Assembly: GCF_040126055.1 (NCBI RefSeq)
Contig: NZ_CP143541.1
Coordinates: forward strand, 1,860,001 to 1,924,000
DNA from: Pseudalkalibacillus sp. SCS-8
GTDB taxonomy: Bacteria; Bacillota; Bacilli; Bacillales; Fictibacillaceae
Direction of reading: 5' to 3'
DNA: 64,000 nt
Made by a program: the position numbers and the translations under genes. The notes beneath the pieces were generated by a model. The model was not told where the DNA came from. It saw only the letters and a list, made by a program, of their open reading frames with translations, and did no database searches. This document shows positions 23,369 through 51,316 of this stretch, in pieces (the stretch's first letter is position 1; every line of letters begins with the position of its first letter).

Positions 23369-24136
23369 ATGGAACAGAAGGATGAACTCGGAATCTATTT
23401 GTTTTGCGGGATCCAAACAGATCAAGAGGATGAGTTTGGTACGGTGGAGATTGAAGGACAATCAAGGAATATTTTCACCATTCATTATAAAGATGCTGCG
23501 ATGGTAGTGGCTGAGGCTCCATTGAAAATTTACCATCCGAATAAGGAAAACCTTATGTTCCACCAGAATACCGTTTCTGAAGTAATGAACCGTAACGACA
23601 CAGTGATTCCAATCAGCTTCGGTAATATTTTCAAAACACGTGAAGATGTGAAAGTACTCTTGGAAAATCTTTATCCGCAATTCAAAAAATTGTTCCCGGA
23701 AATCAAAGGGAAAATGGAACTTGGATTAAAGGTGATAGGCAAGAAAGAATGGCTCGAATCAAAAGTGAATGAATATGAAGACATTGTGAATAAAGCAGCA
23801 TCAGTAAATAACAAATCTGAGGCTGCCAGTTATTACGAGCGAATCCAATTAGGAGACTTCGCCCAAAAAATGGTCTCACAAATTCAACAAGAAATAATTG
23901 CGGAAATCTATGAACCGCTGAAGGATACAGCTGAAGCTGCAAGGAACAATCCACCGCATGGTGAGAAAATGTTGATGAATGCTTCGTTTCTCATTGATCG
24001 GAAGCAAGAGGGTATGTTTGATGAGAAAATAAATGCTGCCCATGAAAAATGGAAGGATAAAGTTGATTTTAAATATACAGGACCTTGGCCAGTTTACAAT
24101 TTTGTCAACATCCGCTTAAGTGTGGAAGAAAGCTGA
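23369..24136 (+). CDS. gvpF: gas vesicle protein GvpF
   Basis: A 255-residue GvpF/GvpL family protein with the two-domain layout: an N-terminal alpha/beta domain (GIYLFCGIQTDQ, VIPISFGNIFKTREDV) and a C-terminal domain with NASFLIDRKQEGMFDEKI ending in KYTGPWPVYNFVNIRL. GvpF binds GvpA-type subunits and prevents premature aggregation. Its stop codon overlaps the gvpG start (TGATG). Confidence 0.95.
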   Translation: MEQKDELGIYLFCGIQTDQEDEFGTVEIEGQSRNIFTIHYKDAAMVVAEAPLKIYHPNKENLMFHQNTVSEVMNRNDTVIPISFGNIFKTREDVKVLLENLYPQFKKLFPEIKGKMELGLKVIGKKEWLESKVNEYEDIVNKAASVNNKSEAASYYERIQLGDFAQKMVSQIQQEIIAEIYEPLKDTAEAARNNPPHGEKMLMNASFLIDRKQEGMFDEKINAAHEKWKDKVDFKYTGPWPVYNFVNIRLSVEES

Positions 24137-44217: not shown

Positions 44218-45048
44218 ATGAAGGTCATAATAAGCCGAAAAGGATTCGATTCTTCATCTAGTGGTTACCCAAGTCCAATTTTGGAGGATGGCACCTTATT
44301 GTCACTCCCGATACCAGATCCTGATTCCCTTGTGTCCTACCATCACCTTACATCAAGAGAAAAAAACTATTTTGACTACATGAAATCAATTAATAACACG
44401 ATCAAACTAAAGAATAATTGGAAAGAGCTCGATGAAACGATTACATGTCATCTTGACCCGGATCTTGATGCGAATACGCTTAAAAGAGAGAAGGGATGGA
44501 AAGGGGTGTTCGGACAAAGTGGAGCCGCTCAACGTCACCTTGAAAATCAAGGGGTAGAAGAGGGCGACCTATTCCTTTTCTTTGGATGGTTCCGTAATAC
44601 AATCGTTAAAGGAGATCGAATCCTTTTCGATCCCCAAGATAAAAAGGGCAGACATATCATCTATGGATACTTACAAATCGGTGAAATTCATAAAGTCGAT
44701 TCAGCATTTAACATACCAAAATGGATGAGTGATCACCCACATGTGACTCCCCAGAAACGTGAAAAAGAGAGAAATACCATCTATGTTGCTAGAGATTCCT
44801 TGAACTGGTGTGAAAATACACCCGGATATGGAACATTTAATTTTCATGAACGACGTGTTTTGACGAAGCAAGGAATGAACAAGTCTTGTTGGGACCTTCC
44901 TGACATCTTCAAGGACCGGTCGATCAGCTATCATAAACCCTCAAGCTGGAAGGAAGGCTATTTTCAATCAGTCGCCCGAGGACAAGAATTTGTCGTGGAA
45001 TCAGATGAAAGCGTTCTCCAATGGGCGAAAGAGCTTATTCATACTTGA
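44218..45048 (+). CDS. Nmad3-like protein (nucleotide-modification associated domain 3)
   Basis: A 276-residue protein. It begins MKVIISRKGFDSSSSGYPSP then LEDGTLLSLPIPD, the start I recall for the Nmad3 family, which was defined by association with DNA hypermodification systems in phages and bacteria. FGQSGAAQRHLENQGVEEGD and LFLFFGWFRNTI follow. No modification or restriction genes are nearby. ATG 44218 follows GAGAGGTG; the GTG at 44209 lies within it. Its end overlaps the convergent OsmC gene by 14 nt. The role here is unknown. Confidence 0.72.
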   Translation: MKVIISRKGFDSSSSGYPSPILEDGTLLSLPIPDPDSLVSYHHLTSREKNYFDYMKSINNTIKLKNNWKELDETITCHLDPDLDANTLKREKGWKGVFGQSGAAQRHLENQGVEEGDLFLFFGWFRNTIVKGDRILFDPQDKKGRHIIYGYLQIGEIHKVDSAFNIPKWMSDHPHVTPQKREKERNTIYVARDSLNWCENTPGYGTFNFHERRVLTKQGMNKSCWDLPDIFKDRSISYHKPSSWKEGYFQSVARGQEFVVESDESVLQWAKELIHT

Positions 45049-45481
45049 TGATCGGTTCAACAGTTACATTTACATTACCTTTAACTGCCCTTGATATCAT
45101 GCAAGATTGTTCCGCTTTTTCAATAAGCTTCAGTGCCTTCTTATACGCCTTATCCGAATCGGTTTCGTTCAATACCAGTCTCGGGCGATGAATGATTTCT
45201 TTATATGTAATTACCTGATTCGTTACATCGACAATTCCTTCCGATTCCATGGACAAAGACGTTTTTTCGATTTTACCTCGCTCTAGCATGGCTGCAAGCG
45301 TAATGATATAACAAGTCGCTGCCGCTCCAAGCAACATCTCGTCTGGATTCGTACCAACACCTGGTCCATCCATTTCGGTAGGGATTGAAACTTTCGTTTT
45401 CAAATTTGCTGTTTCAATTTCACCAATGTCATTTCTAAGTCCTGGCCATTCAGCCTTCAAAAGAAAGCGATGCTGTGCCAT
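45035..45481 (-). CDS. OsmC family peroxiredoxin-like protein
   Basis: A 148-residue OsmC/Ohr-fold protein, which reduces organic hydroperoxides with a cysteine pair. It has GVGTNPDEMLLGAAATCYII with the first Cys, and a later AEQSCMISRAVKGNVNVTVE with the second, as in the SACOL1771-type subgroup. It is divergent from the ring-cleaving dioxygenase gene, and the TACT-N7-AGTA box lies between them, so both may respond to electrophile stress. Confidence 0.9.
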   Translation of the reverse strand: MAQHRFLLKAEWPGLRNDIGEIETANLKTKVSIPTEMDGPGVGTNPDEMLLGAAATCYIITLAAMLERGKIEKTSLSMESEGIVDVTNQVITYKEIIHRPRLVLNETDSDKAYKKALKLIEKAEQSCMISRAVKGNVNVTVEPIIKYE

Positions 45482-45566
45482 TATTTAACCCCCCTATTCC
45501 TATTTCTAAAGACTATTTTATGTTTATTAACCCACAAGCACAAATGTTTCATATCGGTTTTTATAT

Positions 45567-45608
45567 GGTATACTATAAAGTAAAGTTTCACTTACTATTT
45601 GTTAGTAA
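45567..45608. promoter_or_regulatory. promoter and YodB/CatR-type operator
   Basis: TACTATTTGTTAGTA at 45593-45607 is an exact TACT-N7-AGTA box as bound by the HxlR-family quinone/diamide sensors YodB and CatR of B. subtilis. It lies just downstream of a TATACT -10 candidate (about 45569), a repressing position, and 22 bp before the dioxygenase start. Confidence 0.65.
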
Positions 45609-45629
45609 AACAAGATTGGAGTGTTGGAC

Positions 45630-46604
45630 ATGAGCGATAAGAGGTCATTGAAAGGGATCCATCATGTCTCTGCTATAACAGGAGATGCAAAAAGAAATTA
45701 TCAGTTTTATACAAAAATATTGGGAATGCGTCTCGTAAAGAAAACGATCAATCAAGACGATCCTTCCGTCTATCACCTTTTCTATGCTGATGAAAGAGGC
45801 AATCCCGGTACAGACCTCACCTTTTTTGAAATTCCGATGGCTGGCCAGACATATTACGGTACAAGCAGCATTTCAACTTCTTCCTTAAGAGTTCCATCTG
45901 ATGCAGCGATAAACTATTGGAAGAAACGGTTTATCGAATTTGAAGTAGATCATGATGAAATCAGTCATGTAAATGGAAGATTGGCTTTACCTTTCAGGGA
46001 CTTTGAAGGTCAACGCCTCATGTTTGTTTCAGATGAAACCAACACAGGTGTAAAAGGTGGGAAGCCCTGGGAAAAGAGTCCTGTTCCAGAAGAGTTTGGG
46101 ATCGTCGGGCTTGGCCCCGTATTCATTACCATACCAAAACTAGAAAAAACCGAACAAATACTATTGAATGTTCTTGGTTTCAATAAAAAGAACAGCTATG
46201 ATACACAAAATCGGAATGTTGACGTATATGAGACCGGAGAGGGCGGTACAGGAGCAGAGGTACATCTAATGGAAAGAACGGACCTCCCTCCAGAGAGACC
46301 GGGACGTGGGAGCGTCCACCATGTTGCCTTCCGTGTAGAGAATGAAGAGGAACTTCATAAGTGGGTCGATTATATTAAAGAATTAAGGATTCCTAATTCA
46401 GGCTTTGTTGAACGGTATTATTTCAAATCCTTGTACTTCAGGGAACCGAATGGCGTTCTATTTGAACTGGCAACCGATGGACCTGGTTTTGAAGGGGATG
46501 AACCTTTTGAAACATTAGGAGAGAGCCTGGCACTACCACCTTATTTTGAGAAAGACCGAAAAGAAATTGAGGAAAAGTTGAAACCACTCGATACGAAAGA
46601 ATAA
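45630..46604 (+). CDS. ring-cleaving dioxygenase, VOC family (MhqA/MhqO-like)
   Basis: A 324-residue protein with two glyoxalase/VOC modules: IHHVSAITGDAKRNYQFYTK, ILGMRLVKKTINQDDPSVYH in the first and GSVHHVAFRVENEEELHKWV, FKSLYFREPNGVLFELATDG in the second. Metal ligands are the His of HHV, the His of VHHVAF and the Glu of LFELA. Members are induced by catechol and hydroquinones and cleave aromatic rings. ATG 45630 follows TTGGAGTG. It is coupled to the hydrolase gene downstream. Confidence 0.9.
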   Translation: MSDKRSLKGIHHVSAITGDAKRNYQFYTKILGMRLVKKTINQDDPSVYHLFYADERGNPGTDLTFFEIPMAGQTYYGTSSISTSSLRVPSDAAINYWKKRFIEFEVDHDEISHVNGRLALPFRDFEGQRLMFVSDETNTGVKGGKPWEKSPVPEEFGIVGLGPVFITIPKLEKTEQILLNVLGFNKKNSYDTQNRNVDVYETGEGGTGAEVHLMERTDLPPERPGRGSVHHVAFRVENEEELHKWVDYIKELRIPNSGFVERYYFKSLYFREPNGVLFELATDGPGFEGDEPFETLGESLALPPYFEKDRKEIEEKLKPLDTKE

Positions 46605-46619
46605 CGAGGAGGAAATTAT

Positions 46620-47228
46620 TTGGAACACATCTATATTGCAGGTAAAGAGAAGCATGGCCCAACCTTACTGCTTTTACATGGTACTGGCGGTAATGAAAAG
46701 GATTTGTTACCTCTAGCCGATATAATTGCTCCCAAAGCTTCTGTACTCGGAGTGAGAGGGAATGTGAGTGAAAATGGCATGCCCCGGTTCTTCAAACGAA
46801 TTCGTGAAGGTGTTTTTGATGAAGAAGACCTGAAGTTCCGGACCGAGGAGCTATACAATTTTATCGGAGAAATGTCAGAACGATACGAGTTTGACCGTGA
46901 TCAGCTGATCGCGATCGGTTATTCGAACGGTGCAAATATTGCGGGGAGCCTTTTGTATCACTATGAAGATGCGTTGAAAGGCGCCATTCTCTTTCATGCA
47001 ATGGTACCATTAAAGGGTGTAACATTACCTCCATTAAAAGAAACCCCGGTTTTCATTGGTGCAGGTGAAAATGATCCACTTATTCCAATGAATGAAACAA
47101 AAGAACTGGCAGAAGTGTTAAAAGGAGCAGGAGGTAAAGTGGAAGAGTTTTGGACGAATAGTGGACACCAATTGACGAGAGAAGAGGTTGAGAAAGCAAG
47201 GGAATGGTACGAAAAGAATTTTCATTAG
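46620..47228 (+). CDS. alpha/beta hydrolase, MhqD-like carboxylesterase
   Basis: A 202-residue phospholipase/carboxylesterase-family hydrolase. It has LLLLHGTGGNEKDLLPLADI (oxyanion region), the nucleophile in AIGYSNGANIAGSLLYHYED (GYSNG), Asp in VFIGAGENDPLIP and His in TNSGHQLTREEV. B. subtilis MhqD is of this type and is cotranscribed with MhqO/MhqE. The start is TTG after GAGGAGG, 15 nt after the dioxygenase gene. It probably acts on ring-cleavage products or quinone-derived esters. Confidence 0.9.
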   Translation: MEHIYIAGKEKHGPTLLLLHGTGGNEKDLLPLADIIAPKASVLGVRGNVSENGMPRFFKRIREGVFDEEDLKFRTEELYNFIGEMSERYEFDRDQLIAIGYSNGANIAGSLLYHYEDALKGAILFHAMVPLKGVTLPPLKETPVFIGAGENDPLIPMNETKELAEVLKGAGGKVEEFWTNSGHQLTREEVEKAREWYEKNFH

Positions 47229-47871: not shown

Positions 47872-47899
47872 TAAACTATTGAAAAGGAGGTCATATCAT

Positions 47900-48427
47900 A
47901 TGTCTGCTAGGATTGAAGTAATTGACTATGAACAAGCTGAAGGTAAAATGAAAGAATTGTATGATCGTTTCAATGGTCGCATGGCAAACATCCTTCGGGT
48001 CCAGTCTTTGAATCCGAAATCTTTGGAAGCACACTTGGATTATTATCGCGTCATCATGTTTGGGAAATCACCATTACCTAGACGCCTGCGTGAAATGATT
48101 GCAACAGTCGTCTCTACAACCAATGAATGTTTCTATTGAATGGAACATCATGGGGCGGCGCTCCATCTGCTTGTGAAAGATGAACGATTTGTTCAGCAAA
48201 TGAAAGAGGATTATCGGGATGCCGATCTTTCTAAGAAAGAACGAGCAATCTTGGATTATGCAGTGAAATTAACTGAAAAACCATCCAGCGTTGTGGATGA
48301 AGATGTACATACATTGCGGCAGCTTGGTTGTACAGATCAAGAAATTCTTGATATTTGTCAGATTACTTCGTACTTTAACTTTGTAAACCGAATGGCTGAA
48401 GGACTTGGCGTTGAGTTGGAGAAGTAA
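47900..48427 (+). CDS. AhpD-like peroxidase-related protein with in-frame TGA (candidate selenoprotein)
   Basis: A 175-residue carboxymuconolactone decarboxylase/AhpD-like protein if TGA at 48137-48139 is read through. The family active site is E-C-x-x-C-x-x-x-H. Here it reads NECFY, TGA, MEHHGAAL, so codon 80 sits at the second, peroxidatic cysteine; Cys77 and His84 are in place. The C-terminal 95 codons are intact and end with the family motif ITSYFNFVNRMAEGLGVELE. A hairpin with a GGC loop begins 11 nt after the TGA and fits bacterial SECIS rules. The start ATG 47900 follows AAAGGAGGT. A nonsense mutation is the alternative, but no other decay is visible. Confidence 0.75.
48150..48166 (+). 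promoter_or_regulatory. candidate bacterial SECIS hairpin
   Basis: ATGGGGC at 48150-48156 and GCTCCAT at 48160-48166 form a 7-bp stem (one G-U pair) with loop GGC. The loop starts 17 nt after the TGA. Published bacterial SECIS models ask for a G in the first two loop bases and 16-37 nt between UGA and loop; both are met. Confidence 0.6.
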
Positions 48428-49230: not shown

Positions 49231-50469
49231 ATGAAGTTTAAACTTACAGCATTCATCATTCTTTTATCAATGGGTCTGGCTGCTTGTAATTCCAGCAGTA
49301 GTAATGGTGAAGGACAAACCTCGGAAGTACTCGATAAAGAGTGGAACCAAATAGAAAAAGAAGCCGAAGGTTCGACAGTCAACCTTTTCATGTGGGGCGG
49401 GGATAATGGCATCAACCGTTATATTGATGACTGGGTAGCCCCAAGGCTGAAAGAAGAATATGGTGTTACGTTGAAAAGACGTCCTATGGACACAAATGAA
49501 TTCATCCAAAAGCTTCAAACCGAAAAGAAGGCAGGTAAAGCTGAAGGTACGATTGACATCATATGGATCAATGGGGAGAATTTCAAAAACGCAAAAGAGA
49601 ATGGGTTATTGATTGGCTCATTCGCATCAAAGCTTCCGAATAACAAGAAATACATCGACCCGAATAAAAATTTCACAAAATCAGATATGGGTACGGAAAT
49701 CGAGGGCATGGAAGCACCTTGGGGAAATGTACAGTTCGTCATGTGGTATGATGCGGCAAAGGTTGAAAATCCACCGAAAAACACAGAAGAATTAAAAGCA
49801 TTCGCAGAAAAAAATCCTGGCAAATTCACTTATCCTAACCCAAAAGACTTCACTGGAAATGCATTCCTTAGACACGTTTTATACGAAAAAACCGGGAAGG
49901 ACAAGATGCTTAACGAAAAAGGAGATCCCTCTTGGCTTGATGCAAAGGATGACGCATTCTGGGACTATCTAAAGGAAATTTCACCGAATTTATGGAGAAA
50001 AGGAAAGACCTATCCGGAATCGTTGACTCAGTTAGACCAACTGTATAGTAAAGGAGAAGTGTGGTTCACGTTCGGTTTCAATGAAGCCCGAGGTGAAGGC
50101 TTGATTAAGGATGGGGTTTTCCCTGAGACGACGAAATCGTATGTATTGGATGTGGGGTCAATCGGCAACACCCATTACTTGAGTATACCATTCAACAGTC
50201 CAAATCCTGCTGGTGCTATGGTTGCCATCAATTTCATGGAATCACCTGATGCACAATTGGCTAAAATGGATCCTTCCATGTGGGGCGAAGGAATGGTCCT
50301 GGATACTGAAAGATTACCTGATGATCTTCAATCCGATTTACAAGCTCTTGACCGTGGAAAGGCGGTCCTTTCAACCAATGAGCTAGAAGAAGCTTATTTA
50401 CCTGAATTGAATTCTACGTATATTGATTGGATCAAGGAGCATTGGCTGAATGAAGTTGTTAAGAAATAA
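49231..50469 (+). CDS. ynjB: YnjB-type ABC transporter substrate-binding lipoprotein
   Basis: A 412-residue extracellular solute-binding protein of the YnjB (COG4134) group. The lipobox LAAC gives a mature Cys20. VNLFMWGGDNGINRYIDDWV, IDIIWINGENFKNAKENGLL and GMEAPWGNVQFVMWYDAAKV are typical of the family. It is the binding component of the importer encoded by the next three genes. The substrate of YnjBCD has not been established to my knowledge. The gene end overlaps the permease gene by 20 nt. Confidence 0.9.
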   Translation: MKFKLTAFIILLSMGLAACNSSSSNGEGQTSEVLDKEWNQIEKEAEGSTVNLFMWGGDNGINRYIDDWVAPRLKEEYGVTLKRRPMDTNEFIQKLQTEKKAGKAEGTIDIIWINGENFKNAKENGLLIGSFASKLPNNKKYIDPNKNFTKSDMGTEIEGMEAPWGNVQFVMWYDAAKVENPPKNTEELKAFAEKNPGKFTYPNPKDFTGNAFLRHVLYEKTGKDKMLNEKGDPSWLDAKDDAFWDYLKEISPNLWRKGKTYPESLTQLDQLYSKGEVWFTFGFNEARGEGLIKDGVFPETTKSYVLDVGSIGNTHYLSIPFNSPNPAGAMVAINFMESPDAQLAKMDPSMWGEGMVLDTERLPDDLQSDLQALDRGKAVLSTNELEEAYLPELNSTYIDWIKEHWLNEVVKK

Positions 50470-51316
50470 AAAGGTGCGTCCTTACTTGCACATTGCACCA
50501 GCATTTCTAATGATTGCTGGACTGCTTGGATATGGAGTAATCAATGGAATTTTGGAAAGCCTGCAAATGGACCTTTCATGGTCGAATGAAGCATATCGAT
50601 TCCTGTTCGTGGAAAGTACATTTTGGACGTCGCTTTGGTATACCTTTTATATTACGCTCATTTCAACTCTGATCGCTTTGATGATCGGTTTTGGTATCAC
50701 ACATTTTCTTTTCCCCTATCTTGTTAAGGACCGGTGGAAAGCAATCATTTGGGTACCGATGCTTTTCCCACACTTCGCAGCAGGTTATTTGATTGTCCTT
50801 TTATTTTCAGATAGCGGCTGGATATCAGGGCTGTCTTATAAGGCTGGTTTCATTTCAGGACTTGAGGAATTCCCAAACCTGGTAAACGACTCGATGGGAA
50901 TCGGCATCATCTTAACGTATGTATGGAAGGAGATCCCCTTCGTCGTCCTGATGCTGTTACCCGTCTATGTCCAGATGGATAGCAGATTGAAAGACGTCGT
51001 TCGTACGTTAGGGGGGAAGAAACGGAATGAATTTTTAACAGCACAGTGGCCATTTCTTTGGCCGACGATTATCGAAATTGCGATCATCTTGTTTGCGTTC
51101 ATCTTTGCGGCGTTCGAAGTCCCATATTTGTTAGGTGTAACGTTCCCTCAGATGACACCCGTGTTAGCTTTTGAATGGTTTTTCGAAGGGAACTGGGAAC
51201 AAAGACCACTCGCGTTTGCAGCAATGGTCGTTGTGACACTCATCATCATTTCGTTTACCATTCTCATCTATTCAACCACTCAAAAATACCGACACCGTTT
51301 GATGAGAGGAAGTTAA
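50450..51316 (+). CDS. ABC transporter permease, N-terminal half of YnjC
   Basis: A 288-residue permease with six membrane segments and an EAA-type loop near VRTLGGKKRNEFLTAQWPFL. It corresponds to the first half of E. coli YnjC, which is a single fused permease of two such domains. The second half is the next gene, 3 nt downstream. The start overlaps the end of ynjB, indicating coupling. Confidence 0.87.
   Translation: MKLLRNKKVRPYLHIAPAFLMIAGLLGYGVINGILESLQMDLSWSNEAYRFLFVESTFWTSLWYTFYITLISTLIALMIGFGITHFLFPYLVKDRWKAIIWVPMLFPHFAAGYLIVLLFSDSGWISGLSYKAGFISGLEEFPNLVNDSMGIGIILTYVWKEIPFVVLMLLPVYVQMDSRLKDVVRTLGGKKRNEFLTAQWPFLWPTIIEIAIILFAFIFAAFEVPYLLGVTFPQMTPVLAFEWFFEGNWEQRPLAFAAMVVVTLIIISFTILIYSTTQKYRHRLMRGS

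Follow-up and report, generated by a model that had tools for sequence, protein, structure and literature searches.

The window, the whole 64,000-nucleotide stretch of DNA analysed here, carries at 47900-48427 (+ strand) a gene that raises the question of whether an in-frame TGA ends its product or is read as selenocysteine (Sec). The frame starts at ATG 47900, runs for 79 residues to the TGA at 48137-48139 (+ strand), continues for 95 codons and ends at TAA 48425-48427. A ribosome binding site, AGGAGG, can be read off the sequence at 47885-47890 (+ strand), 9 nt 5' of the ATG. The initial annotation had described a single long frame with a good ribosome site, broken only by this TGA and followed by 95 intact codons, and both parts of that description are borne out, while a plain ORF finder cuts the gene into two fragments at the TGA. 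If the TGA stands for Sec, the product has 175 residues. The read-through protein scores 151.2 bits against TIGR01926 ('peroxidase-related enzyme'; curated cut-off 81.8) and 50.5 bits against the Pfam CMD family PF02627 (cut-off 23), and the TGA occupies the second position of the CxxC pair, in the local sequence N-E-C-F-Y-U-M-E-H-H-G. The gene very probably encodes an AhpD-like (TIGR01926) selenoprotein, with a peroxidase role predicted by homology.

Relatives were found in a species-genome collection by this protein's peptide patterns, and the best 80 of 138 were used; distant ones are under-sampled. The coding sequences compared number 100: the window gene, these 80 loci and 19 loci from genome searches, one of which is the window gene again. 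L104 was left out as a member of another family, and L109 is without the motif; removal of four exact duplicates and six near-identical rows gave 90 non-redundant genes. The motif search for the aligned position allowed Cys, Sec or Ser. The aligned codon is TGA in 37 of these genes (the window gene included) and TGC or TGT in 53, in a sample drawn from the best 80 of 138 and the genome searches. In a tree of the 90 proteins, made with the varying residue masked, one branch parts the Sec from the Cys forms (support 93/93); of 200 bootstrap trees, 94% recover it. On the Sec side are Bacilli, Halanaerobiales-type Bacillota, Acidobacteriota, Gemmatimonadota and Myxococcota, together with a single uncultured bacterium, and four Sec rows lie on long branches. 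The check proposed in the initial annotation, whether the TGA column alternates with TGC/TGT, is borne out in part: Cys homologues do have Cys codons there, but alternation is not frequent, the two forms lying on opposite sides of one branch. Because that single branch separates them, one Sec/Cys change is enough for this sample; the root of the tree is not fixed, so the tree does not give the direction of the change.

The genome (3.62 Mb, one contig) contains selA, a tRNA-Sec (Rfam 59.5 bits, gathering threshold 47; tca anticodon in ARAGORN), and selB and selD, each over its own cut-off, so that the search for the four sel genes suggested in the initial annotation finds them all, within ~10 kb of each other (L010). 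The selD gene itself contains a single in-frame TGA, close to its start within a GGUGCK motif, where Sec-type SelD proteins have their Sec. In the order, a match to the window protein at E <= 1e-30 is found in 15 of 397 genomes, always with TGA, and the remark that such proteins are uncommon in bacilli is correct for this order. SelB is present in all 15, compared with 179 of the 397 overall; if genomes were independent, which they are not, such a co-occurrence would come about by chance with a probability near 5 in a million. Among the 34 genomes of the family, five have an intact TGA gene and 32 have SelB.

SelB-driven read-through of UGA is an established bacterial mechanism. In the window gene, a ribosome arriving at UGA 48137 would meet SelB with Sec-tRNA-Sec bound to a hairpin 17 nt downstream, and UGA would be read as selenocysteine instead of stop. 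The putative SECIS hairpin lies at 48150-48166 (+ strand), with a 7-bp stem (arms 48150-48156 and 48160-48166) and a GGC loop at 48157-48159. Published limits for bacterial SECIS elements are a loop of 3-9 nt, a stem of 4-16 bp, a G among the first two loop nucleotides, a spacing of 16-37 nt and an MFE of -7.5 or lower (PMC13188914). As the initial annotation had claimed, the hairpin falls inside them (loop 3, stem 7, spacing 17), with the energy only just low enough: on its own the 17-mer reaches -7.6 kcal/mol (as good a fold in 3 of 200 shuffles), and a 30-nt stretch with flanks -8.2 kcal/mol (34 of 200). The fold of the 54 nt after the TGA, which had been proposed as a check, gives no such signal, the stretch as a whole being of ordinary stability (z -0.05; 80 of 200 shuffles equal). 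A scan of the gene region against Rfam at a loose threshold returns one weak sRNA match and no SECIS family. Across the window, 49 of 3014 TGA trinucleotides (~1.6%; 27 of 1594 on the + strand, 22 of 1420 on the - strand) are followed by a hairpin that obeys the same rules, and for this reason the hairpin alone is modest evidence. At two TGAs in the window, more than 75 codons of open frame precede the TGA and more than 90 follow it; only the one at 48137 has the hairpin. The other, at 23464 (- strand), lies between frames of 87 and 103 codons and is without a SECIS-like hairpin; the frame read through it looks like a chance open frame.

What goes beyond chance, judging from the aligned genes, is the conservation of the hairpin's position, codons and pairing across relatives. 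Compared with random synonymous recodings, the hairpin is unusually stable (p<0.05) in 30 of the 37 TGA genes but in only 4 of the 53 Cys genes (counts and p-values disregard relatedness unless stated); seven TGA genes do not reach this level. Codon use points the same way. The 21 non-redundant Bacilli TGA genes share 54 invariant residues (Met, Trp and Sec aside), 50 of which are written with two or more codons; the remaining four, GGG GCG GCG CTC, keep a single codon, and all four are in the hairpin. When the most divergent gene (L038) is removed, six of 61 invariant residues in the other 20 genes have a single codon, all within or overlapping the hairpin. Over the 37 sequences, 94.2% of stem cells are able to pair, and the covariation score of the stem is 0.282 against 0.150 in shuffled alignments, a score that none of 500 shuffles reaches; with the partner slid, the score is never above 0.041. 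Of the five covariation measures, two are no higher than in shuffles (2 pairs changing on both sides, shuffles 1.9; 6 further pair types, shuffles 5.2), and changes on both sides occur in only two of the seven stem pairs. One TGA gene (L039) has no hairpin of at least 5 bp in this register, and in another (L080) the hairpin is shifted.

A pseudogene, in which a Cys codon has turned into a stop and the downstream part is decaying, would be in line with the genome of a sister species (G028), which has a 3' remnant only, and with the dN after the TGA, which exceeds that before it in 12 of 12 pairs. The remnant (L109, contig 67) consists of 63 C-terminal codons, the whole 5' part including the TGA being gone; it is not at a contig end, SelB is present in the genome, and it adjoins the same CDP-alcohol transferase gene as here (77% identity). 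Against decay, the same TGA recurs in 37 non-redundant genes of several phyla with no further in-frame stop, and stops other than the TGA are likewise absent from the window gene and the 80 relatives, from the five intact family genes and from the 15 order matches. Close relatives, where further lesions had been expected if the gene were decaying, keep the full frame with TGA in those five and 15 genes. Moreover, residues Y158 F159 N160 F161 V162 N163 R164 M165, 3' of the TGA, are the same in 40 of 40 aligned proteins, and the hairpin codons are conserved, leaving decay highly improbable. The ratio dN/dS after the TGA, computable in one of the 12 pairs (0.15, L112), is not used as support, because synonymous sites are saturated in most pairs and dN is higher after the TGA in all 12. 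A sequencing error was also considered and is rejected, the same TGA being found in 37 non-redundant genes.

It is scarcely more credible that the TGA is a real stop and that the gene gives separate products, one N-terminal with 79 residues and the other starting at ATG 48140. An ATG does follow the TGA here and in many relatives, but other TGA genes have ATT, ATA, GTG, GTA, ACT or ATC in its place, and no Shine-Dalgarno sequence is visible by eye ahead of ATG 48140, in agreement with the initial annotation. Two products would also split the active-site pair, and the Cys homologues are one chain. If global recoding or leaky suppression made the TGA a codon for Trp or some other standard residue, the frame would equally stay open, as under any sense reading. 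However, TGA closes 14 of the 47 window open frames of at least 200 codons (not all of them proven genes) as an ordinary stop, the 53 relatives without TGA all have Cys at this position, and the Sec machinery and hairpin are in place; a standard residue is accordingly a very remote prospect. Insertion of selenocysteine, the reading proposed at the outset, is supported computationally, with the sel genes, the Cys homologues, the hairpin and the intact TGA frames in agreement.

The selenoprotein is predicted to take the all-helical CMD/AhpD fold. An AlphaFold2 model built on an alignment of 40 of 81 sequences, chosen by the authors, is all-helical with a pLDDT of 96.3, and superimposes on the AhpD-like crystal structures 6k40, 3c1l, 2pfx, 2oyo and 2prr with TM scores of 0.88-0.92 (6k40, 0.92); these are the best solved matches, and sequence searches point to AhpD-like structures too. 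The Cys-type peroxidase-related proteins (6k40, 3c1l, 2oyo) share this fold over nearly the whole length but have Cys in alignments where the window protein has Sec. Five relay positions are kept in 40 of 40 aligned proteins: Glu65 (48092-48094), 12 residues ahead of the first Cys, Cys77 (48128-48130), the first residue of the CxxU pair, Tyr79 (48134-48136), residue 80 and, four residues after Sec80, His84 (48149-48151), all on the + strand. The relay is described as Glu118-Cys130-His132-Cys133-His137 in M. tuberculosis AhpD and as Glu36-Cys48-Tyr50-Cys51-His55 in PA0269 (PMC3141380), and the spacing of the five window residues is the same, Glu65-Cys77 corresponding to Glu118-Cys130 and Tyr79 to Tyr50 of PA0269. 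These two proteins nevertheless differ from the window protein in topology or length, and M. tuberculosis AhpD works with AhpC, whereas no AhpC partner is named among the seven neighbouring proteins scanned (one of the seven is without a family).

By analogy with M. tuberculosis AhpD, we infer that Sec80 is the attacking and Cys77 the resolving residue. The initial annotation had placed the TGA at the peroxidatic Cys of the pair; the second CxxC position is confirmed, but the peroxidatic role is carried over from M. tuberculosis AhpD. The protein is probably a selenol/thiol peroxidase using Glu65-Cys77-Tyr79-Sec80-His84. By homology, Sec80, activated by the Glu65/Tyr79/His84 relay, would most likely attack a hydroperoxide or similar substrate, and the selenenylsulfide then formed with Cys77 would be reduced by a thioredoxin-type donor. 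A true Sec gene might instead encode a thiol-disulfide enzyme or a Bmp8-like enzyme of reductive dehalogenation: the debrominase Bmp8 (6ohi, 6ohj) is among the profile matches and shares the fold with TM scores of 0.72-0.77. This is unlikely, though far less so than the readings without Sec, as the nearest structures, like the name of the family, are those of peroxidase-related proteins, even if several of the entries are titled 'uncharacterized'.

The AhpD-like selenoprotein family is already known, and the gene adds a bacillus member to it. Work on the Sargasso Sea in 2005 (PMC1088965) and the GOS survey of 2008 (PMC2398784) both reported AhpD-like selenoproteins with CxxU, and a table row of a 2026 review gives 'AhpD-like protein, TIGR01926, CxxU' among selenoprotein families, with MCB9421940.1 as an example (PMC13188914). 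The window gene is regarded as a further member because of this entry, with which it shares both the family model and the CxxU motif. The main text of that review does not contain the words Bacillus, Bacilli, Firmicutes or Bacillota, whereas the window gene belongs to a bacillus, and 15 of the 397 genomes in the order have a match. For Bacillales, a table in PMC1794560 gives three selenoproteins of three families, and no paper on this protein in Bacilli was found in the open-access literature. If correct, the reading places a family known from metagenome surveys and broad catalogues in bacilli that have been cultured, among them Alkalibacillus filiformis and Fictibacillus nanhaiensis, and the Sec and Cys forms that nature provides offer a means to test what selenium contributes to one enzyme.

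A related AhpD-type domain with CFYU defines NF041238 (AhpD_rel_CFYUT). The window protein is not a member, reaching 49.9 bits against a cut-off of 175 over about half the model length. The same genome has one elsewhere (L104, C1:3338077-3339045, - strand): a second AhpD-like TGA gene with a CFYUT motif, 346.9 bits, and a predicted hairpin of -9.1 kcal/mol after the TGA. NF041238 is over its cut-off in two of the 34 family genomes. The TGA genes found in a partial selenoprotein search of the genome are selD and the two AhpD-like CxxU proteins, that is, the window gene and the CFYUT type; three matches to formate dehydrogenase FdhA, sought there as a TGA gene, are all below cut-off and without an internal stop. 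Among the sampled TIGR01926 relatives, no return from Sec to Cys is seen. Tentatively, this bacillus may keep its Sec machinery for peroxide defence, with the TIGR01926 Sec form as one old lineage of Bacilli, Halanaerobiales, Acidobacteriota, Gemmatimonadota and Myxococcota. This reading is rated less probable because, among the family genomes, SelB (32/34) is much more widespread than the window gene (5/34), and because the selenoprotein search was partial.

Gene neighbourhoods vary, and no neighbour within 3 kb is common to more than four of 19 loci. Those that recur are a three-gene set in three Halobacteroidaceae-type loci and ABC-transporter genes, which occur at this distance in four loci, with the permease in three. 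In the window, ABC-transporter genes lie at 49231-51316 (binding protein NF008633, 469.9 bits), and a tie to the AhpD-like gene is possible but weak. Beside the gene, at 45035-47228, a peroxiredoxin of the SACOL1771 family scores above its cut-off with 212.8 bits. With it are a protein of weak resemblance to ring-cleaving dioxygenases (32.8 bits against a cut-off of 320) and an esterase similar to MhqD (212.7 bits against 325). A quinone/peroxide stress theme is possible for these genes; as a cluster they recur in fewer than three of the 19 loci.

The sel cluster contains further genes. A glycosyltransferase gene (L010:6585-7622; C1:1734585-1735619) starts beside the end of selB and has a match in 83 of 397 order genomes. 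Among the 67 genomes with SelB coordinates listed, it lies directly 3' of selB on the same strand in 38, that is, in 38 of the 40 with a match of at least 230 bits and in none of the 27 below. Its likeness to the selenosugar synthase SenB is weak (TIGR04348, 103.6 bits, cut-off 300; 8k5u, 29.4 bits), and other glycosyltransferases match better. It is a candidate new selenium-linked enzyme and may be more novel than the AhpD-like gene. Between it and selD, a PhnD/PhnE/PhnC-type ABC transporter (L010:7626-10042) could possibly take up selenium oxyanions: its binding protein scores 185.7 bits against TIGR04553, 'putative selenate ABC transporter substrate-binding protein' (cut-off 250), with phosphonate models higher (227.1 and 218.8). 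Finally, a recombinase-like gene (L010:4053-4616), with XisF as its best NCBIfam match (83.4 bits, below cut-off), lies between the tRNA-Sec gene and selB and may hint that the sel cluster has been mobile.
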